Source: Amycolatopsis roodepoortensis
Lineage (GTDB): Bacteria; Actinomycetota; Actinomycetes; Mycobacteriales; Pseudonocardiaceae
Assembly: GCF_014873915.1 (NCBI RefSeq)
Contig: NZ_JADBEJ010000001.1
Span: forward strand, 620,001 to 684,000
Length of the DNA: 64,000 nt
Direction: 5' to 3'
Below, piece after piece: positions 10,011-40,909 of this stretch. A program made the position numbers and the translations under genes. Below the pieces are notes generated by a model that was given only the letters and a program-made list of their open reading frames with translations, searched no databases and was not told the origin of the DNA. Each line of letters begins with the position of its first letter. Positions within the stretch are counted from its first letter, which is position 1.

Positions 10011-10025
10011 CCCCGGTCCGGCCGC

Positions 10026-10658: not shown

Positions 10659-10668
10659 GGTGGGCACC

Positions 10669-11166: not shown

Positions 11167-11183
11167 GGCTTCAGTCTTACCTA

Positions 11184-11195
11184 GTTAATATTAAC
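11184..11195. promoter_or_regulatory. Perfect palindrome, likely MarR operator
   Basis: GTTAATATTAAC is a perfect 12-bp palindrome, AT-rich in very GC-rich DNA. It sits in the short divergent promoter region between the membrane-protein gene (start 11166) and the MarR gene (start 11224). Position and symmetry suggest an operator for the adjacent regulator controlling both directions. Confidence 0.65.
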
Positions 11196-11223
11196 GCGTC
11201 AACACTCATGATAGGGTGACGCC

Positions 11224-11643: not shown

Positions 11644-11646
11644 GCG

Positions 11647-25339: not shown

Positions 25340-25365
25340 GAATCCTCCTTGATTCGTGGTGGGCG

Positions 25366-26469
25366 TCAGTGGTCCTGGCGGTAGTGCCGGAGCTTCTCCG
25401 GATCGATTTCGGCACCGAGACCGGCACCGGGACGGACGGTGAGCTCGCCGTCGACGACCCGCAACGGCTCGGTGAGCAGGTCGTCGCTCATGTCGAGGAA
25501 GTTCGAGAGTTCGCCGGGGCGGCGGGACGTCAGCTCGTAGGCCGAGCCGAACGCGACCGTGCACAGCGAGCCGAGCTGGCCGTCGATCTGGTTGCCCATC
25601 ACGACTTCCAGGCCGAGCCCTTCGGCGAGGTGGTGGGTGCGCTGCGAACGGGTGAAACCGGTGCGGGCGGTCTTGATGCTGATCGCGGTGGCGGAGCCGC
25701 CGAGGATCTCGCGGGTGACGTCGGCCGGGGTCACCGCGGATTCGTCGGCGATGAACGGCACGTCGAGCTGCCGCACGAGCCAGCGCCTGCCGAGGACGTC
25801 GTCGGCGGGGCACAGCTCCTCGGCGAAGAGCAGCCCGAGGTCGGCCATCTCGCGCATCGCGCGGGCCGATTCGGCGGCGGTCCAGCCGCGGTTCCCGTCG
25901 ACGTAGAGGTCGACGGCCTCGCCGAAATGCTCCCGCAGCGCGCGCACGACGGCGGTGTCGAGCGACGCCGGACGACGGCCGACCTTGACCTTGAAGGTGG
26001 TGATGCCGTGCGTCTCCCGCATCCGCTCGGCCTCGGCGACCATCGCCGACGGCTCGTCGAAGCCGAGCATGTGGGACACGCGCATGCGGTCGGTGTAGCC
26101 GCCGAGCAGCTCGGTGACCGACACGTCGAGGCTGCGCCCGAGCGCGTCCCAGACGGCCATGTCGATCGCGGATTTCGCGGTCGGGTTGCCGACCGTGCGG
26201 GCGAGCCTGGTGTGCACCGTTTCGCGGTCGAGCAGGCTGAGGCCGACCACCTGCGGGGCGAACAGGGAGTCGATCACCGCGATGATCCCCGCCTGCGTCT
26301 CGCCGTAGGTGAACGGGCGTGGGGGCGCCTCGGCCACGCCGACGACGCCGTTGTCGGCGTGCACCCGCACGAGGACGTGCTCGGCGACGTGCACTTCGCC
26401 CGAGGCGAACTTCAGCGGTTTCCGGTACGGGATGGCGAACGGGATCGCCTCGACTCGCGTGATCTTCAT
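25366..26469 (-). CDS. catB: Muconate cycloisomerase
   Basis: 367-residue enolase-superfamily enzyme converting cis,cis-muconate to muconolactone. Catalytic landmarks: the K-x-K base motif in TTFKVKVGRRP, metal ligands at DGNRGW, FAEELCP and IADESAVTP, and the second lysine in ISIKTARTG. The N-terminal capping domain starts MKITRVEAIPFAIPY. The ATG overlaps the catR stop by one base (TGATG). It acts between CatA and CatC, and the operon order B-A-C is common in actinomycetes. Confidence 0.93.
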   Translation of the reverse strand: MKITRVEAIPFAIPYRKPLKFASGEVHVAEHVLVRVHADNGVVGVAEAPPRPFTYGETQAGIIAVIDSLFAPQVVGLSLLDRETVHTRLARTVGNPTAKSAIDMAVWDALGRSLDVSVTELLGGYTDRMRVSHMLGFDEPSAMVAEAERMRETHGITTFKVKVGRRPASLDTAVVRALREHFGEAVDLYVDGNRGWTAAESARAMREMADLGLLFAEELCPADDVLGRRWLVRQLDVPFIADESAVTPADVTREILGGSATAISIKTARTGFTRSQRTHHLAEGLGLEVVMGNQIDGQLGSLCTVAFGSAYELTSRRPGELSNFLDMSDDLLTEPLRVVDGELTVRPGAGLGAEIDPEKLRHYRQDH

Positions 26470-27362
26470 CAGGTGCCCTCTGGGGTGGGGAAGACGTCCT
26501 CGAGCGCGTCGAGGACCGTCGTGACGAGCGGGGACGGGGTTTCGCGGTGCCACGCCAGCGCCAGCTCCACGGTCGCCGCTCCGGCGAGGTCGCGGAACAC
26601 GACACCGGCCAGGGGCAGCGCCCTGGCCGAGGCGGGCACCACGCCGACCCCGAGGCCGCCGGCGACCAGCGCCAGCAGGACCGCGGTCCCGGAGGCTTCA
26701 TGCAGCTGATGGGGCGTGAGCCCCGCCTCCCGGCAGCTGCGGGCGACGGCGTCGTACACGACGGAGTTGCGCCGGTCGTAGGTCACGAGTGGTTCGGTCC
26801 GCAGGTCCGCCATCGCGACGACGGGTTCGGCGGCCAGCCGGTGGTCGGCGGGGACGGCGAGGATCAGCGGCTCGCTCTCGATCACCCGGAAGCCGATGTC
26901 GTCCCCGGTGACCGGCGGGCGGAGCACCCCGATGCCCAGCGTCCCGGTGCGGAGGCGCTCGCACTGCTCGGCGGTCAGGAGATCGGCGCGGATCTCCAGC
27001 TCCACGTCCGGCACCCGCTGGGCGAGCGCCCTGGCCAGCCGCGGCAGATGGGAGAACGCGGCGGTGCCGGTGAAGCCGACCCGGAGCAGGCCCCGCTTGC
27101 CCTCACCGATCCGGCGGACCCCGCGGACTCCCACGTCCAGCCCCGCGAGCACGCGCCGGGCTTCGGCCAGGAAGAACTCGCCCGCCGGCGTCACGCGGAC
27201 CTGCCGGGTCGTCCTGGCCAGCAGGACGACGCCGAGTTCCTCCTCCAGCTGGCGGATGGTGTGCGAGAGCGCGGGCTGCGCGACGTGCAGCCGCTCGGCC
27301 GCCCGGCCGAAGTGACAGGTCTCGGCGACGGTGACGAAGTAGCGCAGGTGACGAAGTTCCAT
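26469..27362 (-). CDS. catR: LysR-type regulator of the catechol operon
   Basis: 297-residue LysR-type regulator. The HTH occupies residues 1-60 (MELRHLRYFVTVAETCHFGR, AAERLHVAQPALSHTIRQLE), followed by a periplasmic-binding-like effector domain (LRVGFTGTAAFSHLPRLARA; VVPASARALPLAGVVFRDL). Its effector is expected to be cis,cis-muconate. The ATG at 27362 has GGAGGGAGG upstream. Unlike the classical divergent arrangement, this gene heads the operon and overlaps catB, so it controls its own promoter together with the pathway genes. The putative operator is at 27448-27470. Confidence 0.88.
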   Translation of the reverse strand: MELRHLRYFVTVAETCHFGRAAERLHVAQPALSHTIRQLEEELGVVLLARTTRQVRVTPAGEFFLAEARRVLAGLDVGVRGVRRIGEGKRGLLRVGFTGTAAFSHLPRLARALAQRVPDVELEIRADLLTAEQCERLRTGTLGIGVLRPPVTGDDIGFRVIESEPLILAVPADHRLAAEPVVAMADLRTEPLVTYDRRNSVVYDAVARSCREAGLTPHQLHEASGTAVLLALVAGGLGVGVVPASARALPLAGVVFRDLAGAATVELALAWHRETPSPLVTTVLDALEDVFPTPEGT

Positions 27363-27647: not shown

Positions 27648-27706
27648 AAGTACGTGAAGGCCCCCTTCATTGCGCCAGGCGCAATGAAGGGGGCCTTCAC
27701 GTACTT
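27648..27706. repeat. 59-bp perfect palindrome with 29-bp arms
   Basis: Arms 27648-27676 and 27678-27706 are perfectly complementary around a single A. The outer part contains GTGAAGGCCCCCTTCATT, related to the hairpin at 39028. It could form a very stable hairpin or cruciform. There is no T-run on either side, and the flanking genes point away from it. Confidence 0.9.
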
Positions 27707-27946
27707 CAGCGGCGACCCCGCGGAGCGGTAACCCCCGTCCTTCCGGTGACGGACGGGATCGTGTCCGGGAACTCCTTGTCTCCCTTGCTGTCGTGTGCAC
27801 GACCGGGATGCGCGGCTCCGACTCCAGTTCGTCAGCACGGATGAACTTTCCCGTCGCTCTCGTCGTTCCGCACGAATCGGTGGCGCCGGTCCCCGGCATA
27901 GCATCCCGGGAACTGCGGCCGACGCTTCCCGGACACGAGGTGGAAC
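27707..27946. other. Intergenic stretch before the hydrolase operon
   Basis: No convincing gene. Open frames here are shadows of the palindrome. It must contain the promoter for the operon starting at 27947, but I cannot place -35 and -10 elements with confidence. The nearest ribosome site to the ATG at 27947 is GAGGTGGAAC. Confidence 0.5.
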
Positions 27947-29338
27947 ATGGCGAAACTTTCCGAAATCGACGCCTGGTTGGGCCAGAACCTTTCCGCCCTG
28001 CTGGCCGAACACCGGGTTCCCGGTGCGGCCGTCGCGGTCCTCGCCGGCGGCGAGGTGATCGAGCACGCGGCGGGCGTGCTGAACAAGGACACCGCTGTCG
28101 AGTCCACAGTGGACTCCTTGTTCCAGATCGGCTCGATCACGAAGGTGTGGACGACGACGCTGGCGATGCAGCTCGTCGACGAAGGTCTCCTCGATCTCGA
28201 CAAGCCGGTCCGCAGCTACCTTCCGGAGTTCGTCCTCGCGGACGACGACGCGGCGTCGCGGATCACCGTCCGGCAGCTGACCTGCCACACGTCCGGTTTC
28301 GAAGGCGACATCTTCACCGACACCGGTGTGGGCGACGACTGCGTGGAGAAACTGGTCGCGACGCTGGCGGACGTGCCCCAGCTGTTCCCGCCGGGGGAGA
28401 TGTTCTCCTACAACAACGCCGCCTACTGCGTGCTCGGCCGCGTCGTCGAAGTGCTGCGGGGCAAGTCCTACGACGACTGCCTGCGTGACCATCTGTTCGC
28501 CCCGCTGGGACTGACGCACGCGGCGGCCGGGCCGTACGACGCGATCCGGTACCGCGCCGCGATCGGGCACCTCGCGCCGGAACCGGGCGGCGACCCGCGG
28601 CCGGCCGGGATCTGGGCGCTGACCCGGTCGAACGCCCCCGCCGGATCGATGCTCTCGATGCGCCCGCGCGATCTGCTCACCTTCGCGCGGATGCACCTGT
28701 CCGAGGGCCGGGCGGACGACGGCACCCAGGTGCTCCGGCCGGAAACCGTGCGATCGATGTGGGAACGCCAGGTCGAGCTGCCCGACCTCGGCCTGATGGG
28801 CGGGGCGTGGGGCCTGGGCTGGATGCTTTTCGACTGGCCGGGCGGCCCGGTGATCGGCCACGACGGCGGCACCATCGGCCAGTCGGCCTTCCTGCGGGTG
28901 GTGCCGGGCCGCAACGTCGCGGTCGCCCTGCTCACCAACGGAGGCGAGACGCTCCACCTGTACGCGGACATCTTCCGGAAGGTGCTCGGCGACCTCGCCG
29001 ACGTCGAGGTCCCCGCCCTGCCGGAGCCGAACGCGGCGGCGGCCCCGGCCGACCCGTCCCGGTACGTCGGCGAGTACTCGTCGCGCGTCGCCGACACCGT
29101 GGTCACCCAGGACGACGACGGCAAGCTGTGGATCGAGCGGGTGCCGAAAGGGGTCATGGCCGCCACGGGAGGCGAAACCGAGAAGGCGGAGTTGCTGGCC
29201 TACAAGGACAACACACTCGTCGCGGCCTACAAGACGCACCCCGGCCTGCACATGCCGCACGCGTTCGTCGGCGATGACGGGAACGGCCGGGCGCTGTACC
29301 TCCACACCGGGCGCGCCGACCGGCGGGTGGGCCGGTGA
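27947..29338 (+). CDS. Class C beta-lactamase-fold serine hydrolase
   Basis: 463-residue penicillin-binding-protein-like hydrolase without signal peptide. Active-site motifs: S63-I-T-K66 in FQIGSITKVW, Tyr155-Asn-Asn in FSYNNAAYCVLG, and VIGHDGGTIGQSAF in place of the third (KTG-type) motif. A C-terminal lipocalin-like or beta extension (residues 360-463, PADPSRYVGEYSSRVADTV) follows. Such enzymes act as esterases, D-aminopeptidases or peptidases. It begins a seven-gene unit with overlapping ends and is about as long as, and clearly paralogous to, the C-terminal half of the fusion protein at 35705. A cytoplasmic location suggests it acts on an imported substrate. Confidence 0.85.
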   Translation: MAKLSEIDAWLGQNLSALLAEHRVPGAAVAVLAGGEVIEHAAGVLNKDTAVESTVDSLFQIGSITKVWTTTLAMQLVDEGLLDLDKPVRSYLPEFVLADDDAASRITVRQLTCHTSGFEGDIFTDTGVGDDCVEKLVATLADVPQLFPPGEMFSYNNAAYCVLGRVVEVLRGKSYDDCLRDHLFAPLGLTHAAAGPYDAIRYRAAIGHLAPEPGGDPRPAGIWALTRSNAPAGSMLSMRPRDLLTFARMHLSEGRADDGTQVLRPETVRSMWERQVELPDLGLMGGAWGLGWMLFDWPGGPVIGHDGGTIGQSAFLRVVPGRNVAVALLTNGGETLHLYADIFRKVLGDLADVEVPALPEPNAAAAPADPSRYVGEYSSRVADTVVTQDDDGKLWIERVPKGVMAATGGETEKAELLAYKDNTLVAAYKTHPGLHMPHAFVGDDGNGRALYLHTGRADRRVGR

Positions 29339-30237
29339 GCCGGATCGCCGACGAGATCGATGCGGTCTTCGCGGCCGCCGGGGCTCGCGGATTCCTGCAC
29401 GCGCGGGAGGTCGGTGTCTCCGGCGGGCCCGAAGTCGCGGTGGGCGCGGACGATCCGGTCGTGCTCGCGTCGGTCTTCAAGATCCCGGTCGCCGTCGCCT
29501 ACGCCAGGGAAGTGGTGGCCGGGCGGCTGGACGAGACCGAGCGGACCCGGGTCACCGCCCGGTACCGGATCGGGGGGATCGGCACCGCGGGCTGTGCGGA
29601 CGACGTCGAGATGAGCTGGCGCGACCTGGCGCATTTCATGCTGACGATGAGCGACAACGCCGCGACCGACCTCGTCTACCGCCGGGTCGGCCAGGAGGCC
29701 GTCGACCGGGTGCTCGCCGATCTCGGGCTCGCCAGGACGCGGTTGATCGGCTGCTGCGAAGACCTTTTCTCCTCGGTGATCGCCGATCTCGGCGCGAAAC
29801 CGGACGACGACCTGGAAGCCGTCTTCGCGGCCGCCACGCCCGAACAGCTGTGGAAGCTCTCGGTGCTCGACCCGGAACGCACGACGGCGTCGACGCCGCG
29901 GGAGATCACCGCGCTGCTGGACGCGATCTGGACCGACCGCGCGGGCGACCCGGCCGCCTGCGAAAGCGTGCGGAAGATCATGGCACGGCAGATCTGGCCG
30001 CACCGGATGTCGTCCGGTTTCCCCGCCGGGGTGGCGATCGCGGCCAAGACCGGGACGCTTCCCGCCGTCCGCAACGAAGCGGGTGTCGTGTCCGATGTGG
30101 ACGGTCGCCGGTACGCCGTCGCGGTGTTCACCCGTGCCGGATCCCTTGCCGATCGCCTGCCCGCGGTCGACGCCTCGATCGGCACGGCGGCGCGCCTCGC
30201 CGTGGACCACCTTCGCGCACTTTCCGTCGAACCGTAG
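29335..30237 (+). CDS. Class A beta-lactamase-like serine hydrolase
   Basis: 300-residue protein with the class A order of motifs: S46-V-F-K49 in LASVFKIPVAVAY, S106-D-N in LTMSDNAATDLVY, and K238-T-G in IAAKTGTLPAVRNEAG. No E-x-x-L-N motif of the omega loop is visible; the segment between SDN and KTG reads LGAKPDDDLEAVFAAATPEQ. The general-base glutamate of true class A enzymes therefore seems to be missing. No signal peptide. It overlaps the previous gene (GTGA). Hydrolysis of a peptide or amide is more likely than penicillin resistance. Confidence 0.82.
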   Translation: MSRIADEIDAVFAAAGARGFLHAREVGVSGGPEVAVGADDPVVLASVFKIPVAVAYAREVVAGRLDETERTRVTARYRIGGIGTAGCADDVEMSWRDLAHFMLTMSDNAATDLVYRRVGQEAVDRVLADLGLARTRLIGCCEDLFSSVIADLGAKPDDDLEAVFAAATPEQLWKLSVLDPERTTASTPREITALLDAIWTDRAGDPAACESVRKIMARQIWPHRMSSGFPAGVAIAAKTGTLPAVRNEAGVVSDVDGRRYAVAVFTRAGSLADRLPAVDASIGTAARLAVDHLRALSVEP

Positions 30238-30246
30238 GAGAACCGC

Positions 30247-31845
30247 ATGAAGACAGCCCGGCTCACCGCCGCCATGGCGGGCGTGGTGGCCTTGACCGTG
30301 AGCGCGTGCGGGGGGACGTCGCAATCCGGACAGGACCGGACCGCGAACCAGAAATTGACCGACGGCAAGACCTTCACGATGGGCCTGTCGACCGATCCGG
30401 GGACGCTCGACCCGGCCGTCACCGTGCTGTCGATCGCCAGGCAGATCGGGCGGTTCCTCTACGACGGCCTGATCAACCTCGACTCGGCGGGAAAACCGGT
30501 CGCGGGGTTGGCGGAGAAATGGGACGCCACGACGACCACGGCGAACTTCACCCTGCGCGACGGGATCAAATGCGCGGACGGTTCGCCGCTGACCGCGCGG
30601 GACGTGGCAGCCAACATCAACCACGTCGGTGATCCGGCGACCAAGTCCCCGCTGACCGGCGTCAGTGTCAAGGCGGGGACGAAGGCGGTGGCCGACGACG
30701 CGGCCCGGACCGTCACGGTCACCAGCGGGTCACCGGATTCGTTCCTGCTGCGCAACGTGGCCGGGGTGCCGATCGTCTGCGCCAAGGGGCTGGCGGACCG
30801 GGCGTCCGTCGCGAAAGGACAGCACGGCACCGGCATGTTCACCATGACCGAGATCGTGCCGAACGACCACTACACCCTGACCCGGCGCAAGGACTACGCC
30901 TGGGGCCCCGGCGACTGGAAGAACGAACAGCCGGGACTTCCCGAGAAAGTGGTCTTCCGGGTCGTGCCGAACATGACGACGACGGCGAACCTGCTGTTGT
31001 CCGGGGAACTCAGCGCGGCGCAGGTGACCGGGCAGGACCAGCAGCGGTTGCGGTCACAGAAGTTGTTCCACGCCGACATCGTCATGCCGATGGGCGAGGT
31101 GTTCTTCAACCAGGCGCCCGGCAGGCCCGGCCAGGACCTGGCGGTGCGGCGGGCACTGACCCAGGCGCTCGATTTCGCCCAGATCGGCAAGGTGCTCACC
31201 ACCGGCACCGGCCAGCCCGCCAAGGGGCTCGTCACCGGGGAACCGTTGGCGTGTCCCGGTGATTCGGTCAACGGCAAGCTGCCCGCCTTCGACGTTGCCG
31301 CCGCGAAATCCGGGCTCGACGCCGCGGGGTGGATGCCCGGCCCGGACGGAGTGCGGGCCAAGAACGGCAAACGGCTCGCCCTCACCGTCGTCTACGGCAC
31401 CCAGGTCGGGCCGACGATGGTCTCGGCCGCGGAGCTGATCCTGCAGTCGTGGAAGAACATCGGGGTCGAGGCCACGATCAAGGCCGTCGACGGTCCCGGT
31501 GTCAGCCAGGTGCTGTTCGGCACCGGCGAGTGGGAGGTTTCGCTGGCACCACTGGGATTCGTCCTGCCCAGCCAGGCCATTCCGTTCGTCTCCGGCGCGA
31601 AACCGCCGCAGGGTACGAATTTCGCGTATATCGAGAATCCCCGGTACACCGAGCTCGTGGGCAAGGCGTCGGCGCGGACGGCCGAAGCCGGTTGCGGTGA
31701 CTGGCTGGCCGCCGAATCCGCGCTGTTCGAACGGCTCGACGTGGTGCCGTTCGTGAATTCGACCATCCCGACCTTCGCGAACGGCGCGCGGTTCGAGATG
31801 AACCAGGGCCAGATCCTGCCGTCGTCGATCCGGATGTACTCCTGA
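30247..31845 (+). CDS. Peptide-type ABC importer solute-binding lipoprotein
   Basis: 532-residue family 5 binding protein. The signal peptide MKTARLTAAMAGVVALTV ends in the lipobox S-A-C (Cys21), so it is membrane-anchored outside. Family segments: FTMGLSTDPGTLDPAVTVLS, ANFTLRDGIKCADGSPLTAR and a C-terminal VVPFVNSTIPTFANGARFEM. The ATG lies 9 nt after the preceding stop with AGGAG upstream. It would capture the substrate that the flanking hydrolases process. The ligand class (peptide, D-amino-acid peptide or beta-lactam-like amide) is inferred from neighbours. Confidence 0.88.
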   Translation: MKTARLTAAMAGVVALTVSACGGTSQSGQDRTANQKLTDGKTFTMGLSTDPGTLDPAVTVLSIARQIGRFLYDGLINLDSAGKPVAGLAEKWDATTTTANFTLRDGIKCADGSPLTARDVAANINHVGDPATKSPLTGVSVKAGTKAVADDAARTVTVTSGSPDSFLLRNVAGVPIVCAKGLADRASVAKGQHGTGMFTMTEIVPNDHYTLTRRKDYAWGPGDWKNEQPGLPEKVVFRVVPNMTTTANLLLSGELSAAQVTGQDQQRLRSQKLFHADIVMPMGEVFFNQAPGRPGQDLAVRRALTQALDFAQIGKVLTTGTGQPAKGLVTGEPLACPGDSVNGKLPAFDVAAAKSGLDAAGWMPGPDGVRAKNGKRLALTVVYGTQVGPTMVSAAELILQSWKNIGVEATIKAVDGPGVSQVLFGTGEWEVSLAPLGFVLPSQAIPFVSGAKPPQGTNFAYIENPRYTELVGKASARTAEAGCGDWLAAESALFERLDVVPFVNSTIPTFANGARFEMNQGQILPSSIRMYS

Positions 31846-32825
31846 TGACGAGCGCCGTCGCGACGGCCGGCCCGCGCAGCAGCCCTTGGCTGTCGTTCGG
31901 GATCCGCCGGCTCGGCCGGTTCGCGGTCTCGTTGTGGGTCCTGGTCACCACGGCGTTCCTGATGATCCAGCTGATCCCCGGCGACCCCGTCCGCGCGGCG
32001 CTCGGGCTGACCGCGCCCGCCGAGCTGGTGAACGCCCGGCGGGCCGCGCTCGGCCTCGACGACCCGCTCTGGAAGCAGTACGCCGACTACCTCGCCGGTC
32101 TCTTCTCGGGCGACTGGGGAACGTCGATGACCACCGGGGTACCGGTCGCGGACGTCATCGGCGACCGGCTCCCCGCGACCCTGCAACTGGCGCTGCCCGC
32201 CTTCACGGTGGTCATCGCGGTCGCGATCCCGCTTGGCCTGCTGTTCGCAGTCCTGACCAGGGGCGGCCGCCGTCGTGGCGGGGAACTGGCGTTCACCTCG
32301 ACGACGGTCCTCCTGGCCGCGATCCCGGAGTTCCTGGTCGCGGTGGCGCTGGTGGCGTTCTTCGCGGTCCGCCTCGGCTGGTTCCCGGTGGCGGGCAGCG
32401 AAGCACCGGGCGCGCTCGTGCTCCCGGTGATCGCGCTGGCGCTCGGCCCGGCGTCGGTCCTCTCCCGTATCGTCCGCGTGGAGACGCTTTCCGTGCTGGG
32501 CAACGATTTCATCCGCACCGCGCGGGCGAAGCGGCTGCCCGCGCGGCTGGTCTACCTGCGGCACGCGATGCCGAACGCGCTGACCGCGACCCTGACCATG
32601 GGCGGGCTGATGCTGACCGGGATGGTCGCCGGGACGGTGCTGGTGGAGAACGTGTTCGCCTGGCCGGGCCTCGGTTCCACCATCACGCAGTCGATCCTGC
32701 AGAAGGATTATCCGCAGGTCCAGGGAATCGTGCTCGTCTACGGCATCGGTGTCCTGCTGGTGAACCTGGCGGTGGACGTGCTGCTGGCCGTCCTCGATCC
32801 GCGTTCGACGATCCGGGAGGACTGA
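31845..32825 (+). CDS. Peptide-type ABC importer permease (DppB type)
   Basis: 326-residue permease with six helices. Motifs: VTTAFLMIQLIPGDPVRAAL and LGLDDPLWKQYADYLAGLF near the N-terminus, RTARAKRLPARLVYLRHAMP as the EAA loop and ENVFAWPGLGSTITQSILQK near the end, all typical of DppB. The ATG overlaps the stop of the binding-protein gene by one base (TGATG). It partners with the permease half of the next protein. Confidence 0.9.
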   Translation: MTSAVATAGPRSSPWLSFGIRRLGRFAVSLWVLVTTAFLMIQLIPGDPVRAALGLTAPAELVNARRAALGLDDPLWKQYADYLAGLFSGDWGTSMTTGVPVADVIGDRLPATLQLALPAFTVVIAVAIPLGLLFAVLTRGGRRRGGELAFTSTTVLLAAIPEFLVAVALVAFFAVRLGWFPVAGSEAPGALVLPVIALALGPASVLSRIVRVETLSVLGNDFIRTARAKRLPARLVYLRHAMPNALTATLTMGGLMLTGMVAGTVLVENVFAWPGLGSTITQSILQKDYPQVQGIVLVYGIGVLLVNLAVDVLLAVLDPRSTIRED

Positions 32826-32826
32826 G

Positions 32827-34728
32827 ATGGCGAATCCGCGCCGAGCGAAATGGCTCGCGGCCCTGCGCACCCCGCTAGGCGCGTGCTCGGCCGGGCTGCT
32901 GGCGCTGGTGATCGTGCTCGCGGTGCTGGCCCCGATCCTGTGGCAGGACAAGGCTTTCGAGATCGACACGAACGCGATCGGGCAAGGACCGTCGGCGGCG
33001 CACTGGCTGGGCACTGACGACCTCGGCCGCGACATCCTCTATCGCGTGCTGGTGGCGACCAGGCTGTCGATCGTGCTGGCGCTGCTCGCCACCGCGCTCG
33101 GCGTGATGACCGGGCTCGTGCTCGGGGCGCTGCCCTCGGTGCTGCCGCGTCCGCTCGCCCGGCTGGTGATCGCGGCGGTCAACATCGCGGTCGCCTTTCC
33201 CGGTCTGCTGCTGGTGTTGTTCTTCTCGGTCATCTTCGGCGTCGGGACGCACGGCGCCGTGCTGGCGGTCGGTTTCGCGCTGGCCCCGGCGTTCGCGCGG
33301 CTGGCACAGACGATGGCGGCTTCGGTGGCGGGACGGGATTTCGTCGCGGCGGCCAGGATCTCCGGCGTCGGCCGGATCCGGTTGCTGTTCCGGCACATCC
33401 TGCCCAATATCGGCGAACCGCTGGTGGTCAACGCGACCATCGGCGCCGGCGGGGCATTGCTCGCCTTCGCCGGGTTGTCCTTCCTCGGCATCGGTGTCCA
33501 GGCCCCGGAATACGACTGGGGGCGGATCCTCGGCGAAGGACCCAACGGCATCTACGTCAATCCGGCGGCGGCGCTGGCGCCCGGGGTCGCGGTCGTCCTC
33601 GCCGGGCTCGCCTTCAACCTGGTGGGGGAGACCGTCGCCGGGGTGATCGGCGTGCGCACGGGGCTGCGGAGGTTCGCGCCGCGGCCGGTCGCCCCGGCCA
33701 GGGAAGACGCCGCCGAGTCCCGCGACGACGCCGTGCTGGTCGTGGAGAACCTCCAGGTCGCGTTCCCGAACCCGGCGGGCTGGACCGTTCCGGTGCGCGG
33801 GGTGGGTTTCACCGTCCACGCCGGTGAGGCCGTCGGTGTCGTCGGCGAGTCGGGCTCGGGGAAGAGCCTGACCGGGCTGGCGGTGTCCCGGCTGGTCGAA
33901 GCACCCGCCGTGGTCACCGCGGACAAGCTCGAATTCGCCGGGAAACCGTTGCTGACGACACCGGAACGGGAGTTACGTGGCCTGCTCGGCACCTCTCTGG
34001 CGATGGTCTTCCAGGATCCGATGACGTCGTTCAACCCGACCAGGCGGATCGGCCGCCAGCTGGCCGAAGTCGCCGAACAGCATCAGGGACTCCCGCGTGC
34101 CAAGGCCTTCGAGCGCGCGGTGGACCGGCTTCGCGCGGTGCGGATCCCCGCCGCCGAACGGCGGGCACGGCAGTATCCGCACGAGTTCTCCGGCGGCATG
34201 CGGCAGCGCGCGATGATCGGCATGGGCCTGATGGGCGACCCGAAGCTCATCATCGCCGACGAACCGACCACGGCGCTGGACGTCACCGTGCAGCGGCAGT
34301 TGTTGCGCCTGCTGGCGCGGACCAGGGCCGAGCGGGACACGGCGATCATCCTGATCAGCCACGACATCGCGGTCGTTTCACAGACGTGCGAACGGATGCT
34401 GGTCATGTACGCGGGCCGGGTGGTGGAGGATCTGCCGACCGCCGGGACGCCGCGGCATCCGTACACGCGGGCGTTGCTGGCCGCGACGCTCGACCTTGAT
34501 ACCGATCGTGACGCGCCGCTCGCGGTGATCCCCGGCCGCCCGCCGGAACCGGACCGGGTGCCCGCCGGCTGCGCTTTCGCCGACCGGTGCCCGGCGGTGA
34601 CCGATCGATGCCGCCTCGAAGACCCGGCGCTGGAGCGCGTGGAACCCGGGCATCGCGTGGCCTGCTGGTATCCGGCGCCGCTTTCCCCGCCTGTCAAGGA
34701 AATCGTGACCGCCGGAGGTGCGGAGTGA
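32827..34728 (+). CDS. Fused ABC importer permease (DppC) and ATPase (DppD)
   Basis: 633-residue fusion. Residues 1-280 are a DppC-type permease (HWLGTDDLGRDILYRVL, AARISGVGRIRLLFRHILP, FLGIGVQAPEYDWGRIL). After a linker near residue 300 (PVAPAREDAAESRDDA), residues 305-633 are a DppD ATPase: Walker A GESGSGKSL, signature FSGGMRQR, Walker B LIIADEPTTALD, H-loop LISHDIAVV and the C-terminal oligopeptide-transporter segment CAFADRCPAVTDRC. No stop or frameshift separates the halves. The ATG is one nt after the previous stop. Fusions of this kind occur in actinobacteria. Confidence 0.9.
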   Translation: MANPRRAKWLAALRTPLGACSAGLLALVIVLAVLAPILWQDKAFEIDTNAIGQGPSAAHWLGTDDLGRDILYRVLVATRLSIVLALLATALGVMTGLVLGALPSVLPRPLARLVIAAVNIAVAFPGLLLVLFFSVIFGVGTHGAVLAVGFALAPAFARLAQTMAASVAGRDFVAAARISGVGRIRLLFRHILPNIGEPLVVNATIGAGGALLAFAGLSFLGIGVQAPEYDWGRILGEGPNGIYVNPAAALAPGVAVVLAGLAFNLVGETVAGVIGVRTGLRRFAPRPVAPAREDAAESRDDAVLVVENLQVAFPNPAGWTVPVRGVGFTVHAGEAVGVVGESGSGKSLTGLAVSRLVEAPAVVTADKLEFAGKPLLTTPERELRGLLGTSLAMVFQDPMTSFNPTRRIGRQLAEVAEQHQGLPRAKAFERAVDRLRAVRIPAAERRARQYPHEFSGGMRQRAMIGMGLMGDPKLIIADEPTTALDVTVQRQLLRLLARTRAERDTAIILISHDIAVVSQTCERMLVMYAGRVVEDLPTAGTPRHPYTRALLAATLDLDTDRDAPLAVIPGRPPEPDRVPAGCAFADRCPAVTDRCRLEDPALERVEPGHRVACWYPAPLSPPVKEIVTAGGAE

Positions 34729-35708
34729 GCGATCTCGTCTTCGACGCGGTGAGCGTGCGCTACGGCGGCCGCCGCGGGCTCACGGCCGTCGACGGAGTAA
34801 AGCTGACCGTCCCTTCCGGACAGGTCGTCGGGCTGGTCGGTGAATCGGGATCGGGGAAGTCGACGCTGGCCCGCGCCGCCGTCGGGCTGTCACCGGTCAG
34901 CGCCGGACGGGTTCTGCTGGGCGGCGTGGACGTCCGCGAGCTGCCCCGCCGTCCGCCGCTGCAGATGGTGTTCCAGGACCCGTATTCCTCTTTGGACCCC
35001 CGGATGAGCATCGGGGAATCGATCACCGAGGCGATCCCACGTGGCGTCCTCCCCGGACGCGCGGCCCGCCGGGACGAGGTCGCCCGGCTGCTAGAACTGG
35101 TCAACCTCGATCCCGAACGCGCAGACCACTTGCCGGGACGGCTTTCCGGCGGCCAGCGGCAACGGGTGGCGCTCGCCCGCGCGCTGGCCGGACGGCCCGA
35201 AGTGCTGATCGCGGACGAGATCACCTCCGCGCTCGACGTCTCGGTGCAGGGCGCGGTGCTCAACCTCGTCCGGTCCGTGCAACGGCGGCTCGGCCTGTCG
35301 ATGCTGTTCATCTCGCACAACCTGGCGGTGATCCGGTACCTCAGCGACATCGTCGCCGTGATGTACCTCGGCCGGATCGTCGAGGTCGGCCCGGCCGAAC
35401 AGGTGCTCACCGACCCGCGGCATCCGTACACGCGTGACCTGCTCGCCGCCGCGCCTTCGGCGACCACGTCACTGCTCGGCACGGGCTCGGACGACGTGAT
35501 CGCCGACGCCGAACCCGCCGACCCGCATCATCCGCCCGGCGGATGCCGCTACCACCCACGCTGCCCGGTCGGCCCGCTCGTGCGCGCCGATCGCGACCTC
35601 TGCCTCCGGGTGGATCCCGCCGAGGGCGCGGCGCAGCGGCGTCACTCGGCGGCCTGTCACTTCAGCGACAACGAGCTCACGACTTCCAGAGGAGCAAGCG
35701 CATCATGA
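34725..35708 (+). CDS. Peptide-type ABC importer ATPase (DppF type)
   Basis: 327-residue ATPase. Walker A GESGSGKST, Q-loop MVFQDPYSSLDPRM, signature LSGGQRQR, Walker B LIADEITSALD, H-loop FISHNLAVI, and the C-terminal Cys cluster typical of oligopeptide ATPases (GGCRYHPRCPVG, then DRDLCLRVD). Glu follows Asp in Walker B as needed for catalysis. The GTG at 34725 overlaps the previous stop; the longer frame from 34587 is rejected. It completes the importer with the DppD half of the fused protein. Confidence 0.9.
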   Translation: MSDLVFDAVSVRYGGRRGLTAVDGVKLTVPSGQVVGLVGESGSGKSTLARAAVGLSPVSAGRVLLGGVDVRELPRRPPLQMVFQDPYSSLDPRMSIGESITEAIPRGVLPGRAARRDEVARLLELVNLDPERADHLPGRLSGGQRQRVALARALAGRPEVLIADEITSALDVSVQGAVLNLVRSVQRRLGLSMLFISHNLAVIRYLSDIVAVMYLGRIVEVGPAEQVLTDPRHPYTRDLLAAAPSATTSLLGTGSDDVIADAEPADPHHPPGGCRYHPRCPVGPLVRADRDLCLRVDPAEGAAQRRHSAACHFSDNELTTSRGASAS

Positions 35709-38700
35709 CCCGACGTCTCGGTCTCGACGACCTATACGACATCGCCGTCCCCAGCCAGCCTTCGCTGTCCCCGGGCGGCGACCGGATCGTCTACGTCCTG
35801 CGCACCGCGGACCGTGACGAGGACCGGAACGTGCACACGCTCTGGGAGGTCGACGCGACCACCGGCGAAGCCCGGCGGCTCACCCGCGGAACCGCCGACC
35901 TGGCCCCGAAATGGGCGCCGGACGGCACGCGGATCGCGTTCCTGCGCGCCCAGGACGGGCCGCCGCAGGTGTGGTTCCTGCCGTCGTCGGGCGGGGAGGC
36001 CGAGCAGGTCACCGAACTCCCGCTCGGGGCGGGCGCGCCGGTCTGGAGTCCGGACGGCGGCAAGATCGCCTTCTCCGCCGCGGTCGATCTGGCCGGTGGG
36101 GAAGCGGCGCCGAACGCCCCGGTGGTGGCCGATCGTCTCGACTTCAAGGCCGACGGCGCCGGGCTGATCAAGACCGTCCGCAAGCATCTGCACGTCCTCG
36201 ACGTCGCCACGCGCGAAGTCCGGCAGGTCACCTTCGGCGATTGGCACGCCGGTGATCCGGCCTGGTCGCCCGACGGCACGCACCTCGCCTTCTCGTCCGG
36301 TCAGGACGGCGACGCCGATCTGACCTTCCGTTCCGGCGCCTACGTCCTCGACGTGACCGCGAAGACCGCCGAGCCACGGCTGGTCGGCTCCGGCGAGGGC
36401 ATGGCGGGCACGGTCGGCTGGACCGCCGACGGCGCCGCGTTGCTGGTGGTCGGCCGGGCCGACACCCGGGTCGGGCATCTCGGGTTGTGGCGTGTTCCGC
36501 TCGACGGCGGGGATCCGGTCGAGCTGACGGCCTCCCTGGATCGCAACGTGATGGCCGGAGGCCCCGGCTATCCGGGAGCCCTACCGCAGACGACGGAGGA
36601 TGGCGCCGTGTTGTTCGGTGTCCGGGACCGTGGCTGCACCCATCTGTACGAAGTGGACGGTGACGGCCCGCGTCCGGTGCTGGCGGGCGCGGATCGCGTG
36701 GTGTCCGGAGTGGACGTCGCGGCCGGGCGGGTCGTGGTCGTCCTGGCCACCGGCGATTCGTTCGGCGAAGTCGCCGTCGTCGACCGGGCAACCGGCGCCG
36801 TCGACGTGCGCACCAAGCACGGCGCCTCCGTGGCCGAGGTCGAGCTTTTCCGCCACGAGGAACGGGAATTCACCATCGGCGACGGCACCGTCGTCCACGG
36901 CTGGCTGCTGCGGGACCCGGCGCGGTCCGGTGCCGCGCCGCTGCTGCTCGACATCCACGGCGGGCCGCACAACGCCTGGAACGGCGCGGCCGACTCGATC
37001 CATCTCTATCACCAGGCGCTCGTCGCGCGGGGCTGGGCGGTGCTGCTGATCAACCCGCGGGGCAGCGACGGCTACGGCGAGGACTTCTACACCGCCGCCG
37101 TCGGCGGATGGGGCGTCGCGGACGCGGCCGACTTCCTCGAACCGCTGGATCACCTTGTCGCCGAAGGGATCGCCGACGCGGACCGGCTCGCGGTGGCGGG
37201 CTACAGCTACGGCGGGTTCATGACCTGCTACCTGACCAGCCGCGACAGCCGGTTCGCCGCCGCCGTCGCCGGTGGCGTGGTCAGCGACCTGACCAGCATG
37301 GGCGGCACGTCCGACGCCGGGCACTACCTGGCCGTCGGCGAACTCGGCGGTCCGGCGTGGGACAAGGCCAACGAGCGGTTCTCGCCGTTCGCCCAGGTGG
37401 AGCGGGTGCGGACGCCGACGCTCGTCATCCAGGGCGCGAACGACGACCGGTGCCCGGTCGGCCAGGCCGAGCAGTGGTTCGGCGCCCTGCGCGCACGGGG
37501 TATCCCGTCCCGGCTGGTGCTGTACCCGGACGCTTCGCACCTGTTCATCCTCGACGGGCCGCCGTCGCACCGGCTCGACTTCAACCGGCGTGTCCTCGGC
37601 TGGGTCGAGCAGTACACGGCGCCGGCCGATGGCCCGTCACGGGTGCCGATCGAGGCCGCGCACTGGCGCCGACGGCTGGCCGAACTGGCCCGCAAGCACC
37701 GCGTTCCCGGCGCGGCGCTCGGCATCACCCGGATCGGTGATGACACCGAGGTGCTGGCGTCCTACGGCGTGCTGAACACGAAGACCGGGGTCGAGGTCAC
37801 CGAAGACTCGGTGTTCCAGATCGGCTCGATCTCCAAGGTGTGGACCGCGACCGTGGTCATGCGGCTGGTCGACGAAGGGCTCCTCGAACTGGACGCGCCG
37901 ATCGCGGACGTCCTGCCGGAACTGCGGCTGGCCGATCCGGGCGTGGCCGGGAAAGTCACCATGCGGCACCTGCTGACGCACACCAGCGGTATCGACGGCG
38001 ACGTCTTCACCGACACCGGCCGCGGCGACGACTGTCTCGAACGCTACGTCGAAGTCCTCGACCAGGCCGCGCAGAACCATCCGCTCGGCGAGACCTTCTC
38101 CTACTGCAACTCGGGTTTCGTGATCATGGGCCGGGTGATCGAGAAGCTCACCGGGCTGACGTGGGACGCGGCGATGCGCGAGAAACTGTTCGCTCCGCTC
38201 GGTCTCACCCACACCGTGACCCTGCCCGAGGAGGCCTTGCTCTTTCGGGCGGCCGTCGGTCACGTGACCGACGGGGACGAGGACCCGGCGCCCGCGCCCG
38301 TCTGGGGACTGCCCCGGAGCATGGGGCCCGCCGGGCTGATCACCGCCACGGCGAAGGACGTGCTCGGCTTCGCGCGGCTGCACCTCGCCGACGGGCTGAC
38401 CCCGGCGGGGGAACGGATCCTGACGACGGACTCGGTCACCGCGATGGCCGCGAAACAGGCCGACATCCCCGACAAGCACTCGCTCGGCGACTCCTGGGGG
38501 CTCGGCTGGATCCGCGACACCTGGGGCGGGCAGCGCGTCATCGGCCACGACGGCAACACGATCGGCCAGTCGGCGTTCCTCCGGCTCCTGCCCGATCAGG
38601 GGCTCGCCATCACGTTGCTCACCAACGGGGGCAACACCCGGGACCTGTACGTCGAGCTGTACCGGGAGATCGTCGCCGAACTCGCCGACGTGGCGATGCC

Positions 38701-39016
38701 CCGGCCGCTCGAACCGCCGTCGACCCCGGTCACCGTCGACGGGTCGAGGCATGTGGGCGTCTACGAACGGGCGGGCGCGCGGATGGACGTGCTGGCCGCC
38801 GGGGAAGGATTGCGGCTGCGGCAGACCGCCACCGGACCGCTCGCCGAACTCCTGCCGGAGAAGACGCAGGAGTTCGAGCTGGTCCCGGTGACCGATTCAC
38901 TGTTCGTCTGTCGTGAGCCGGGGACGCGGACGTGGATGCCGGTCACGTTCTACACGTTGCCGACGGGTGAGCAGTACATGCACTACGGCGTCCGTGCGAC
39001 ACCGAAGACGTCCTAA
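35705..39016 (+). CDS. Fusion of S9 prolyl-oligopeptidase-type peptidase and class C beta-lactamase-fold hydrolase
   Basis: 1103-residue fusion without signal peptide. Residues 1-390 are a beta-propeller (repeated WSPDG and WAPDG blades). Residues 395-640 are an alpha/beta-hydrolase of family S9 with Ser501 in AGYSYGGF, Asp580 in GANDDRCP and His612 in DASHLF. After a short linker (TAPADGPSRVP), residues 650-1000 are a class C beta-lactamase-type domain with S708-I-S-K711 in QIGSISKVW, a Tyr motif FSYCNSGF and VIGHDGNTIGQ, then a beta-rich tail as in the hydrolase encoded at 27947. The ATG overlaps the previous stop (ATGA). Two serine-hydrolase centres in one chain suggest successive cleavage of an imported peptide or amide; that is inference. 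Confidence 0.9.
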   Translation: MTRRLGLDDLYDIAVPSQPSLSPGGDRIVYVLRTADRDEDRNVHTLWEVDATTGEARRLTRGTADLAPKWAPDGTRIAFLRAQDGPPQVWFLPSSGGEAEQVTELPLGAGAPVWSPDGGKIAFSAAVDLAGGEAAPNAPVVADRLDFKADGAGLIKTVRKHLHVLDVATREVRQVTFGDWHAGDPAWSPDGTHLAFSSGQDGDADLTFRSGAYVLDVTAKTAEPRLVGSGEGMAGTVGWTADGAALLVVGRADTRVGHLGLWRVPLDGGDPVELTASLDRNVMAGGPGYPGALPQTTEDGAVLFGVRDRGCTHLYEVDGDGPRPVLAGADRVVSGVDVAAGRVVVVLATGDSFGEVAVVDRATGAVDVRTKHGASVAEVELFRHEEREFTIGDGTVVHGWLLRDPARSGAAPLLLDIHGGPHNAWNGAADSIHLYHQALVARGWAVLLINPRGSDGYGEDFYTAAVGGWGVADAADFLEPLDHLVAEGIADADRLAVAGYSYGGFMTCYLTSRDSRFAAAVAGGVVSDLTSMGGTSDAGHYLAVGELGGPAWDKANERFSPFAQVERVRTPTLVIQGANDDRCPVGQAEQWFGALRARGIPSRLVLYPDASHLFILDGPPSHRLDFNRRVLGWVEQYTAPADGPSRVPIEAAHWRRRLAELARKHRVPGAALGITRIGDDTEVLASYGVLNTKTGVEVTEDSVFQIGSISKVWTATVVMRLVDEGLLELDAPIADVLPELRLADPGVAGKVTMRHLLTHTSGIDGDVFTDTGRGDDCLERYVEVLDQAAQNHPLGETFSYCNSGFVIMGRVIEKLTGLTWDAAMREKLFAPLGLTHTVTLPEEALLFRAAVGHVTDGDEDPAPAPVWGLPRSMGPAGLITATAKDVLGFARLHLADGLTPAGERILTTDSVTAMAAKQADIPDKHSLGDSWGLGWIRDTWGGQRVIGHDGNTIGQSAFLRLLPDQGLAITLLTNGGNTRDLYVELYREIVAELADVAMPRPLEPPSTPVTVDGSRHVGVYERAGARMDVLAAGEGLRLRQTATGPLAELLPEKTQEFELVPVTDSLFVCREPGTRTWMPVTFYTLPTGEQYMHYGVRATPKTS

Positions 39017-39027: not shown

Positions 39028-39082
39028 GTCCGTGAAGGCCTCCTTCCCTACCCTGAAGGTAGTGAAGGAGGCCTTCACGGAC
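39028..39082. terminator. Hairpin between convergent genes, likely bidirectional terminator
   Basis: Outer stem GTCCGTGAAGGCCTCCTTC (39028-39046) pairs perfectly with 39064-39082; an inner stem CTACC/GGTAG closes a CTGAA loop, with one C-T mismatch between. It begins 12 nt after the fusion-gene stop and ends 3 nt before the stop of the gene on the other strand. No T-run is present, as usual for actinomycete hairpins. It shares the GTGAAGG-CCTTC theme with 27648-27706. Confidence 0.7.
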
Positions 39083-39085: not shown

Positions 39086-39673
39086 TCAGCTTTCGGCCTT
39101 GACGTACAGGCGCACGGTTCCGCCGCGATGGGTGCGGAAATAGTTCTGGAGCTGCGCGCTGCTCGCGACGCATCCGGCGCTGGTGAATTCGTTCTCACCC
39201 GTTCTGGGCAGGACGACGGAACACTGCGCGAGATAGCTGAACTTGTCCGGCCACAGCACGAAGAACGTCGCGGTTCCGGAACCCGTGTCGCCGTTGTTGC
39301 GGAAGACCGCGCTCATCGAGCAGGCCTTGTCGTCGCACGGACCGTTCCACTGTGAGGAGCGGACCTGGAAATCGGGCCGGGCAGGCGGCGTCGTCCCGGC
39401 GGCCCGGGTGGTGGGTTCCTTCGTGGCCCGCGCCGGCTCGCGGGCCGGCCGTGACTCGGTGGTCCGTGTCGTCCGAGGCACGCTCGCGGCGAGCGGCCGT
39501 GAAGCCGAGGTTTGGCTGGTGGGGGAGGGAGCGAGGCCCTTCAACGGATTGAACCCGGTCAGCGTGTTGATGGCCGCCAGAATGGCGAAGACCCCGCTGA
39601 TCGTGCCGACGATGACGCCCCACTTCTTGTAGTCCGGCTCGTCGTCGGTCTTCTTTGGCTCGTCCCCCGCCAT
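39086..39673 (-). CDS. Membrane-anchored hypothetical protein with extracellular domain
   Basis: 195-residue protein. An acidic cytoplasmic N-terminus (MAGDEPKKTDDEPDYKKW) precedes one helix (GVIVGTISGVFAILAAINTL). Next comes a Ser/Thr/Pro/Arg-rich stalk of about 50 residues, then a C-terminal beta-type domain with three clear cysteines (NGPCDDKACSMS, AQCSVV) plus one in SAGCVASS. The order inside-helix-stalk-domain suggests type II topology with the domain outside. No family recognised; the terminal domain has an Ig-like flavour (AVFRNNGDTGSGTATFFVLW). Monocistronic. Confidence 0.65.
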   Translation of the reverse strand: MAGDEPKKTDDEPDYKKWGVIVGTISGVFAILAAINTLTGFNPLKGLAPSPTSQTSASRPLAASVPRTTRTTESRPAREPARATKEPTTRAAGTTPPARPDFQVRSSQWNGPCDDKACSMSAVFRNNGDTGSGTATFFVLWPDKFSYLAQCSVVLPRTGENEFTSAGCVASSAQLQNYFRTHRGGTVRLYVKAES

Positions 39674-39805
39674 CGTCCCATTCTATGGGCGCACCCCCAT
39701 GGGACGGGAAGAAGAATTCGCCGTCGACGCCAGGACGTCATGATTCACCGTCCTTGTCCCGGGTACCCGAAGATCGAAAACGGAACCGACGAGACAGGAG
39801 ATACC

Positions 39806-40909
39806 GTGCACACTTCAACGCTTCGGCAGGTCACCGTGCGCGAAGGACCGTTCGCGTCGGTCTACTTCGACAACTCGCACAACACCGAGGACGCCGCCGC
39901 GCGGCTGGACCTGCGCTGGCGGTCGCTCCGCAAGCGGCTGGCCGACGAGGGCGCCGAGGAGCGGACGCTCACCGCGCTCGACGAGGCGGTGGCCGCCGCG
40001 CCGCCTTCGGAAGGCACGGCCGGGCGCGCCCTGGTCGCGGAGGGTGGCGAGGTCGTGCTCGACGAGGAGCTCGTGGAGCCGCCTCTCCGTGAGGTAGCCC
40101 GGGTCGCACCGCAGCCGTACCTGCTCCCGCTGCTGCGGCTCACCCCGGCTGTCGTGCCGCATGTCGTGGTGGTCGTGGACAAAACGGGCGCCGATCTGTA
40201 CGCGGTCGGCGAGGACGGCGCCGAAGAGCGGACCGTCGAGGGCGAGGATCACCCGGTGCACAAGGTGCGTGGCGGTGGCTCGGCCTACTGGAACATCCAG
40301 CGTCGCGTGGAGGCCGTCGCAGAACGCAACGCCGCGGAGGTCGCGCGGGAGGCGGTCAAGCTCATGGACTCCGTCGGCGCCGCGGTGCTGGTGCTCGCGG
40401 GCGAGGTGCAGGCGCGGGCACTGGTGCGCGACGAACTCCCGCCGCGGGGGACCGAGAAGGTCGTCGAGCTCGAAGAAGGCGGCCGGGCGGAAGGGAGCGC
40501 GCCGGAGGCGCTCGAAGCCGAGGTGCGGCGAGTGCTGGCGGAGCACGCGGAACGCCGTCGCCAGGACGTGATCGACCGCTTCCGCGCCGGACAGGGGCGC
40601 GACGGCGGGCTGGCGGTGGACGGGCTCGCCAGGACGACGGAGGCCCTGCGGTCGGCCGCCGTCGAGACGCTGCTGATCGACGGTGAGTCGCTGGCCGACC
40701 GGCTCGTCTGGGTCGCGGGCCACCCCACGCAGGTCGCGACCACGAAGGAGGACCTCGACGTTTCGGGTGCCGCCGCGGAGGCTCTCAGGCGGTGTCGCGC
40801 GGACGAAGCGCTTCCGGCGGCCGTGCTGGCCGAAGGCGCGGATCTCGTCCCCGTCAGCGGTGAGGGCCTGGCCGAGGGCGTCGGCGCGATCCTGAGGTTC
40901 GCGATCTGA
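39806..40909 (+). CDS. Baeuf (bacterial eRF1-like, Rv2629-type) protein
   Basis: 367-residue cytosolic protein. It opens with REGPFASVYFDNSHNTEDAA, has PHVVVVVDKTGADLYAVG in the middle and then HKVRGGGSAYWNIQRRVEAV, and ends with a pelota/L7Ae-like domain (ETLLIDGESLADRLVWVAGH, then GEGLAEGVGAILRFAI). This matches the bacterial archaeo-eukaryotic release-factor family 2, whose mycobacterial member Rv2629 is hypoxia-induced. A ribosome-related role is expected from the fold, but the exact function is unknown. The GTG at 39806 follows ACAGGAGATACC; the frame is open further upstream without a better start. Confidence 0.82.
   Translation: MHTSTLRQVTVREGPFASVYFDNSHNTEDAAARLDLRWRSLRKRLADEGAEERTLTALDEAVAAAPPSEGTAGRALVAEGGEVVLDEELVEPPLREVARVAPQPYLLPLLRLTPAVVPHVVVVVDKTGADLYAVGEDGAEERTVEGEDHPVHKVRGGGSAYWNIQRRVEAVAERNAAEVAREAVKLMDSVGAAVLVLAGEVQARALVRDELPPRGTEKVVELEEGGRAEGSAPEALEAEVRRVLAEHAERRRQDVIDRFRAGQGRDGGLAVDGLARTTEALRSAAVETLLIDGESLADRLVWVAGHPTQVATTKEDLDVSGAAAEALRRCRADEALPAAVLAEGADLVPVSGEGLAEGVGAILRFAI

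Follow-up and report, generated by a model that had tools for sequence, protein, structure and literature searches.

In the window, a stretch of 64,000 nucleotides (nt) of the Amycolatopsis roodepoortensis genome (G000 in our numbering) to whose full length all window positions refer, seven open reading frames (ORFs), g1 to g7, lie on the plus strand between 27947 and 39016, all of them open. They encode an importer and several hydrolases and form one half of a larger conserved gene set, for which a function in the use of peptides containing D-amino acids is predicted. The genes and their junctions, the latter read directly, are as follows:

27947..29338, plus strand: g1 (S12a), 463 amino acids (aa), serine hydrolase of the class C beta-lactamase / D-aminopeptidase fold (PF00144, E 1.8e-72)
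29335-29338, plus strand: g1/g2 junction, GTGA overlap
29335..30237, plus strand: g2, 300 aa, class A beta-lactamase-like serine hydrolase (PF13354, Beta-lactamase2, E 1.9e-49)
30238-30246, plus strand: g2/g3 junction, gap of 9 nt
30247..31845, plus strand: g3, 532 aa, family 5 solute-binding lipoprotein (SBP_bac_5, PF00496, E 1.6e-53)
31845, plus strand: g3/g4 junction, TGATG, overlap of 1 nt
31845..32825, plus strand: g4, 326 aa, permease of the OppB/DppB type (BPD_transp_1, PF00528, and PF19300)
32826, plus strand: g4/g5 junction, gap of 1 nt
32827..34728, plus strand: g5, 633 aa, permease (OppC type) fused to an ATPase (OppD type)
34725-34728, plus strand: g5/g6 junction, GTGA
34725..35708, plus strand: g6, 327 aa, ATPase of the OppF type, GTG start overlapping the g5 stop (PF00005, PF08352)
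35705-35708, plus strand: g6/g7 junction, ATGA
35705..39016, plus strand: g7, 1103 aa, S9 oligopeptidase (beta-propeller and hydrolase) fused to an S12/class C-like domain

The seven-gene run with its tight junctions, as claimed in an earlier note on this DNA, proved to be real. It holds a complete set of Opp/Dpp-type importer parts, comprising a family 5 binding protein, two permease domains and two ATPases with an oligo_HPY tail. In g5, permease (PF00528, residues 92-271), ATPase (PF00005, residues 324-482) and oligo_HPY (PF08352) are located on a single chain; the domain scan of g6 started at 34722, one codon early. The nearest curated models of the importer are mixed (nickel, oligopeptide and opine) and were all matched below their cut-offs, and a peptide ligand is predicted. 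The best solved match of g3 was 6lu2 (E 1.5e-26), followed by a weak match to the murein peptide-binding protein MppA (4toz, E 2e-20). Only g3 showed a lipoprotein-type signal within the run (lipobox MKTARLTAAMAGVVALTVSAC, recognised by eye). The earlier claim that the hydrolases lack signal peptides agrees with our inspection of g1, g2 and g7, in which no export signal was evident by eye and in a hydropathy scan, a dedicated signal predictor not having been run. For g1, the hydropathy reaches 1.73 only from residue 24 on, which is inside the domain.

Class A-like relatives of g2 served as bait in a scan that gave 136 stretches encoding such a relative, and the conservation of the run was analysed in the best 80 of them, all named loci. 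These loci are not an even sample, and a class-wide even draw of 394 genomes, the window's own included, served as the fairer one. Nine domains in identical order on one strand (S12a-classA-SBP-permease-permease/ATPase-ATPase-S9/S12b) were found in 62 of the 80 loci, a count that disregards genes outside the query set such as the M19 dipeptidase gene that Lentzea, Crossiella and Nocardia sp. NRRL S-836 carry between g6 and g7. This order is kept in Amycolatopsis, Actinosynnema, Solihabitans, Crossiella, Actinocatenispora and Streptomyces as well as in Arthrobacter, Lentzea, Microbacterium and Nocardia sp. NRRL S-836. The remaining 18 loci are cut by contig or locus ends, contain an inserted extra S12 gene, are rearranged or comprise a partial set. 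The linkage of hydrolases and importer is thus conserved among relatives beyond coincidence, and the first refuting condition named in the earlier note, a lack of such conservation, does not apply.

Several loci showed additional variants of the run. In L067 (A. orientalis) and L108 (A. regifaucium), at about 6839-12500, a second, partial copy comprises a PucR-type regulator, S12a, a class A-like gene and a binding protein; the last three are 65-74% identical to the window proteins, and other genes replace the permeases. An extra S12 gene (33-39% identity to the g7 domain) is present in L078, L083, L086, L090, L093, L098, L099, L107 and other Microbacterium-type loci, either upstream of g1 or between the binding protein and the permease. 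Many Microbacterium-type loci also carry a divergent upstream gene for a double ATPase of an ABC transporter.

ORF clustering and family searches revealed a number of recurring neighbours in the 80 loci, for which all counts are lower bounds, since the loci end at most 10 kb from g2 and the crude ORF caller misses genes. The most frequent was an amidohydrolase of the D-aminoacylase kind (at least 44 loci), followed by an M20 peptidase (at least 30), a PucR-type regulator (at least 24), a GNAT acyltransferase (at least 23) and a racemase of the N-succinylamino acid racemase (NSAR)/o-succinylbenzoate synthase (OSBS) subfamily (at least 23). Rarer were a major facilitator superfamily (MFS) transporter (at least 13) and the M19 dipeptidase (at least 7); a second class A-like gene also recurred. 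The D-aminoacylase-like proteins belong to the PRK09061 subfamily (652 bits, cut-off 340), with D-aminoacylase and N-acyl-D-glutamate deacylase among the solved relatives. The racemase of a relative reached 312 bits on TIGR01928 (cut-off 201), compared to 70 vs 500 and 49 vs 343 bits on epimerase models, and is therefore of the NSAR type and not of the dipeptide epimerase type. Its solved relative is the Amycolatopsis N-acylamino acid racemase. The GNAT protein gave no Pfam, NCBIfam or PDB sequence match at E<=0.001, while many of its listed relatives carry the name GNAT. The structure model of one relative (P0132, not the copy of this genome) showed a GNAT fold with a predicted local distance difference test (pLDDT) value of 86, and 48 of its 50 listed PDB fold matches are named acetyltransferases, the other two being smu.2055 chains. 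The GNAT and M20 genes lie beside the NSAR-type racemase, and their succinyl and D specificity is predicted. An M19 dipeptidase gene within the operon was located at L066:16205-17239, with GliJ and renal dipeptidases as nearest solved relatives of its product.

The linkage of the racemase to the run was followed in three samples. For the loci outside Amycolatopsis, the racemase was found in all 29 genomes and, judged from coordinates, in or just beyond the locus in 25 of them (exceptions L068, L079, L080 and L105). Of these 25 regions, 20 were retrieved, all of which overlap the respective operon locus; GNAT adjoins the NSAR gene in 20/20 of them, and PucR is present in 19/20, M20 in 18/20 and M19 in 7/20. 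The second sample consisted of 60 near genomes, namely the window's own plus 59 relatives; 36 of these 60 genomes belong to its genus. The full g7 fusion was present in 29 of them, in 25 cases with the racemase at a distance of at most 16 kb. In G000 and G019 the two are about 1 Mb apart on one contig, and in G014 and G007 they lie on different contigs, which for G007 may originate from contig ends. Eight genomes of the same genus lack the fusion; six of them showed no racemase at E<=1e-100, and two contain one at 70-71% identity. In the class-wide draw (NSAR threshold E<=1e-130), the full g7 fusion was present in 27 of the 394 genomes, accompanied by NSAR in 26 of these 27 and within 8 kb in 25 (exceptions G000 and G132), while NSAR overall was found in 97 genomes. 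The seven-gene run is the importer-hydrolase half of a larger conserved set. The idea that the seven genes are the complete system does not hold, since relatives carry the larger set contiguously and this genome carries it split.

The other half of the set, in the following called the companion block, is complete at G000:C1:1813955-1822902, from the D-aminoacylase-like gene through the second class A-like gene, and lies 1.16 Mb from the window run. In G008, which contains the contiguous set, the DNA upstream of the set aligns with that upstream of the companion block in G000 and G019 (aligned pieces of about 10.7 kb), and the DNA downstream of g7 with that downstream of the companion block (about 1.85 kb). 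Moreover, the DNA directly following the second class A-like gene in G000 resembles that directly following g7 in L034. Since the companion block has kept the flanks of the contiguous set and the leader of the window run is homologous to the stretch before g1 in relatives, the run together with this leader of about 118 nt moved as a unit out of a contiguous set. The same split was found in G019, and the arrangement in G014 agrees with it. The contiguous set in relatives and the flank comparison likewise rule out the seven genes as a complete unit. Three features surround the moved unit:

27654..27700: copy of a dispersed 47-nt palindrome, located upstream of the moved unit
27828..27946, plus strand: 5' leader, which once separated the second class A-like gene from g1 as an intergenic stretch
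39032..39078: another copy of the dispersed 47-nt palindrome, directly behind g7; may act as a terminator

The leader shows 82-93% identity to the DNA preceding g1 in relatives and is common to most of the 18 relatives aligned; L053, L058 and L065 lack it. A TAGCAT box was present in 13 of 18 hand-chosen upstream stretches, and a scan for the sigma-70 consensus gave no match. The leader likely carries a promoter with a TAGCAT-like box as candidate element, which would explain how the moved unit can work apart. The palindrome of the GTGAAGGCCCCCTTC...GAAGGGGGCCTTCAC type, two copies of which flank the moved unit, occurs at 179 places in the genome; due to this high copy number, a repeat-mediated relocation is not claimed, nor any other mechanism.

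Compared to the two beta-lactamase-fold hydrolases named in the earlier note, the run contains three such domains, since g7 harbours a second class C-like copy besides g1, in addition to g2. The catalytic motifs were counted in the 80 loci and the window after dropping rows with stops or a coverage below 70%. SxxK, YxN and HxG were intact in 78/78 rows of g1 and in 69/69 rows of the g7 S12 domain. For the Ochrobactrum D-aminopeptidase of family S12, PMC3347556 gives S62, K65, Y153, N155, H287 and G289 as the motif residues. Both S12 domains share SxxK, YxN and HxG with this enzyme, to which the D-residue chemistry in that source refers, and g1 is predicted to be a D-aminopeptidase or D-amidase. 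Unlike the Ochrobactrum enzyme, g1 and g7 scored only 50.3 and 49.7 bits on the curated D-aminopeptidase model PRK13128 (cut-off 443) and are not classed as that enzyme. The scores on the curated class C beta-lactamase model also stayed below its cut-off (bla_class_C 85.7 and 89.6 bits vs 415). The second and third best solved relatives of g1 are the thioesterases SurE (6ksu) and Ulm16 (8fek) of the penicillin-binding protein (PBP) type; in contrast to these, g1 is grouped with an importer, and no peptide synthetase was found in the regions seen. SurE handles peptides with D-residues, as stated in PMC11735501. The solved relatives of the S12 domains also include D-Ala-D-Ala carboxypeptidases.

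For g2, the motifs SxxK, SDN and KTG were kept in 77/77 rows, and an action on a peptide or amide bond is predicted. On the curated class A beta-lactamase model bla_class_A, g2 reached 79.3 bits (cut-off 200), and it shows no evident export signal. A Glu at a spacing matching the deacylation glutamate E166 was found in 71 of the 77 rows and an Asp beside it in 72, in a region (residues 130-145) where the model has a pLDDT below 50. Residues 139-144 read GCCEDL at the expected place of the omega loop, the second Cys being present in all 77 rows. By sequence and by fold, the nearest solved relative is BlaB of Streptomyces cacaoi (2wuq), with PBP-A (2j7v) also among the closest. The fold alignment with these two gave 19-23% identity, and g2 differs from them in its longer stretch before KTG and in lacking an evident signal peptide. 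The structure model of g2 has low confidence (mean pLDDT 68) and served for the fold only.

The fusion protein g7 comprises Peptidase_S9 (PF00326) at residues 437-638 and Beta-lactamase (PF00144) at residues 655-979, and the S9 motif GYSYGG was found in 72/72 rows. The scores stayed below the curated cut-offs for the S9 dipeptidyl-peptidase Dpp5 (170 bits vs 900) and the lasso peptide isopeptidase (128 vs 400), and an assignment of g7 to the latter was rejected. A survey of the 80 named loci and six further ones showed S9 and S12b in one frame in 70 of the 76 loci with both domains adjacent. The six unfused cases include three Microtetraspora loci, in which the S9 frame runs 40 nt into the S12 match before it stops, and L153, where it runs about 19 nt into the match; in all four the S12 domain is in another frame, which indicates separate overlapping genes. 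In L154 the S9 stop is separated from the S12 match by about 60 nt, and the sixth, L109 (Microbacterium), comes from an assembly with broken frames. In G050 a distance of 12 kb separates the S9 and S12 parts. Besides its ortholog, G035 contains another full-length S9-S12 fusion (66% identical) at G035:C27:344920-348255.

The racemase of this genome showed 90% identity (333/368) to PDB 1sja, an entry named N-acylamino acid racemase, and about 96% to the query NSAR from L037. The 1sja enzyme presumably originates from Amycolatopsis sp. T-1-60. The genome also contains a separate OSBS gene (448 bits vs a curated cut-off of 288) and, on a different contig, menD (374 vs 244 bits), so that a men operon around the OSBS gene was not shown. 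The presence of the OSBS gene speaks against the racemase as the OSBS of this genome, and since that gene scores above its cut-off, the NSAR is likely not needed for menaquinone. Accordingly, the racemase is the same enzyme type as 1sja, and our observations differ from the OSBS assignment of the latter in PMC4215206 in that the gene is part of a D-amino acid set and the genome has an OSBS gene besides it. Together with menD, these two points argue for D-amino acid salvage as its cellular role, a view that later work may already have reached.

Gene content, catalytic motifs, linkage and relocation are observed directly. From them we infer the substrates, every reaction and the cooperation of the two halves in this genome. 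The set probably enables the cell to take up peptides containing D-amino acids, to open them in the cytoplasm and to convert the released residues to L-amino acids. In this scheme, the lipoprotein g3 would capture short peptides, which g4 to g6 would import. Cleavage of ordinary bonds would fall to the S9 domain of g7, while the S12 domains of g1 and the g7 C-terminus would release D-residues as D-aminopeptidases or D-amidases. Further D-containing bonds may be the targets of the class A-like g2 and, in relatives, of the M19 dipeptidase, and the D-aminoacylase-like enzyme of relatives may act on N-acyl-D-residues. For the freed D-amino acids, N-succinylation by the GNAT enzyme would be followed by racemisation by NSAR, and the M20 enzyme would finally remove the succinyl group to give L-amino acids. 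The first steps are suggested by the S12 chemistry described in PMC3347556, by the M19 and D-aminoacylase-like partners and by the lack of evident export signals. The earlier note had proposed a cytoplasmic opening of substrates with D-residues, cyclic amides or beta-lactam-like bonds. The conserved linkage to NSAR, GNAT, M20, M19 and D-aminoacylase-like genes supports D-peptide scavenging, with the D-residues as predicted substrate; for the cyclic amides and beta-lactam-like bonds there was no evidence either way.

Several observations weigh against this D-peptide scheme. Both S12 domains lie far below the curated D-aminopeptidase model (about 50 vs 443 bits), and the scheme leaves the role of the class A-like protein unexplained. 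The GNAT and M20 specificities cannot be read from the sequence. In this genome, the halves are 1.16 Mb apart and a joint regulation is putative. Class A-like homologs below about 52% identity are mostly located outside such clusters; among 18 regions from 52 genomes with class-level matches, five lie in the cluster, one partly and 12 not, the 12 showing no such neighbours beyond stray ATPase or regulator matches. Conservation is lowest for the binding protein (48-75% identity, median 63%), and therefore the ligand may differ between hosts. Furthermore, NSAR was found in 71 of the 394 class genomes without the full g7 fusion and thus also serves elsewhere. Finally, the NSAR-type enzyme has also been described as an OSBS, which PMC4215206 gives as its biological role.

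Among the other explanations, two appear unlikely to a similar degree. The first is a recycling of peptidoglycan stem peptides, in which the importer would take up muropeptide-derived peptides (L-Ala, D-Glu, diaminopimelic acid and D-Ala) and the hydrolases would trim them. The weak MppA match of g3, behind 6lu2, and the D-Ala-D-Ala carboxypeptidases among the S12 relatives fit such a function, as stem peptides also contain D-residues. However, no LD-carboxypeptidase, muramidase, anhydro-sugar enzyme or L-Ala-D/L-Glu epimerase was present among the recurring neighbours of identified families, many smaller ORF clusters (e.g. 11, 13, 14, 16 and 17) not being identified. In addition, the racemase is of the NSAR and not of the dipeptide epimerase type, and with dedicated racemases existing for D-Ala and D-Glu, stem peptides would not require an NSAR route.

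The second is a detoxification of peptide antibiotics or a recycling of products, in which the set would clear D-residue nonribosomal peptides of the host or its competitors instead of feeding on them. Many hosts of the set are antibiotic producers. The S12 domains resemble the PBP-type cyclases SurE (6ksu) and Ulm16 (8fek), the former handling D-residue peptides according to PMC11735501, whereas the set is also found in Microbacterium and Arthrobacter and includes a predicted salvage tail to L-amino acids.

A general oligopeptide uptake without D-specificity, with the neighbours as a chance collection, is improbable; the importer parts are ordinary Opp/Dpp relatives, but the set is kept through reshuffling of gene order in many genera and in 25 of the 27 genomes of the even draw. 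A hydrolysis of imported beta-lactams or their products by the class A- and class C-like proteins, with which beta-lactamases have fold and motifs in common, is least probable of all and was ruled out as the leading explanation by the curated cut-offs (class C 86 vs 415, class A 79 vs 200 bits) and by the linkage to D-amino acid enzymes, in addition to the lack of evident signal peptides.

The D-peptide scheme can be compared to known systems. The Bacillus subtilis dpp and ykf genes comprise a D-aminopeptidase, a dipeptide importer and an L-Ala-D/L-Glu epimerase, and are aimed at cell-wall peptides. This analogue likewise combines importer, D-specific peptidase and enolase-superfamily epimerase in one locus, while peptidase families and racemase subfamily differ. 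In the route from D- to L-amino acids by Sakai et al. 2006, the deacylase reportedly belongs to the M20 family. We know of no report of an importer-hydrolase front end on this NSAR pathway. As paraphrased in PMC8762209, the pathway of Sakai et al. 2006 comprises an NSAR, a GNAT acyltransferase and a deacylase. The set described here likewise unites an NSAR-type racemase, a GNAT acyltransferase and a deacylase of the amidohydrolase type; unlike the known pathway, these are joined to a peptide ABC importer and to S12, class A-like, S9, M19 and D-aminoacylase-like hydrolases. The parts are members of known families. Their combination with the NSAR route in one conserved set was not found in the searchable literature, most subscription journals being outside this coverage, so that a prior description is possible.

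Further genes surround the run in the window. Just upstream, at 24488-27356 on the minus strand, genes for a LysR regulator, a muconate cycloisomerase-like protein (MR_MLE) and an intradiol (catechol) dioxygenase are located, which apparently have no relation to the D-peptide finding. Downstream, a protein of the archaeo-eukaryotic release factor-like family baeRF_family2 is encoded at 39512-40909 (plus strand), followed by a LuxR-type response regulator and histidine kinase pair at 41935-43703 (minus strand).

The chances are about even that the set represents a complete and previously undescribed actinobacterial system for eating D-peptides, for example nonribosomal peptides, in which the Amycolatopsis racemase gains its true role. 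The finding bears on the long dispute over the cellular role of this enzyme, a question which becomes testable by single-gene deletions. If the reading is true, it would settle the host role of a heavily studied and industrially used racemase. The scattered "beta-lactamase-related serine hydrolases" would become members of a defined pathway and a new source of D-specific enzymes for biocatalysis, and D-peptides would be a nutrient class contested by soil actinobacteria.

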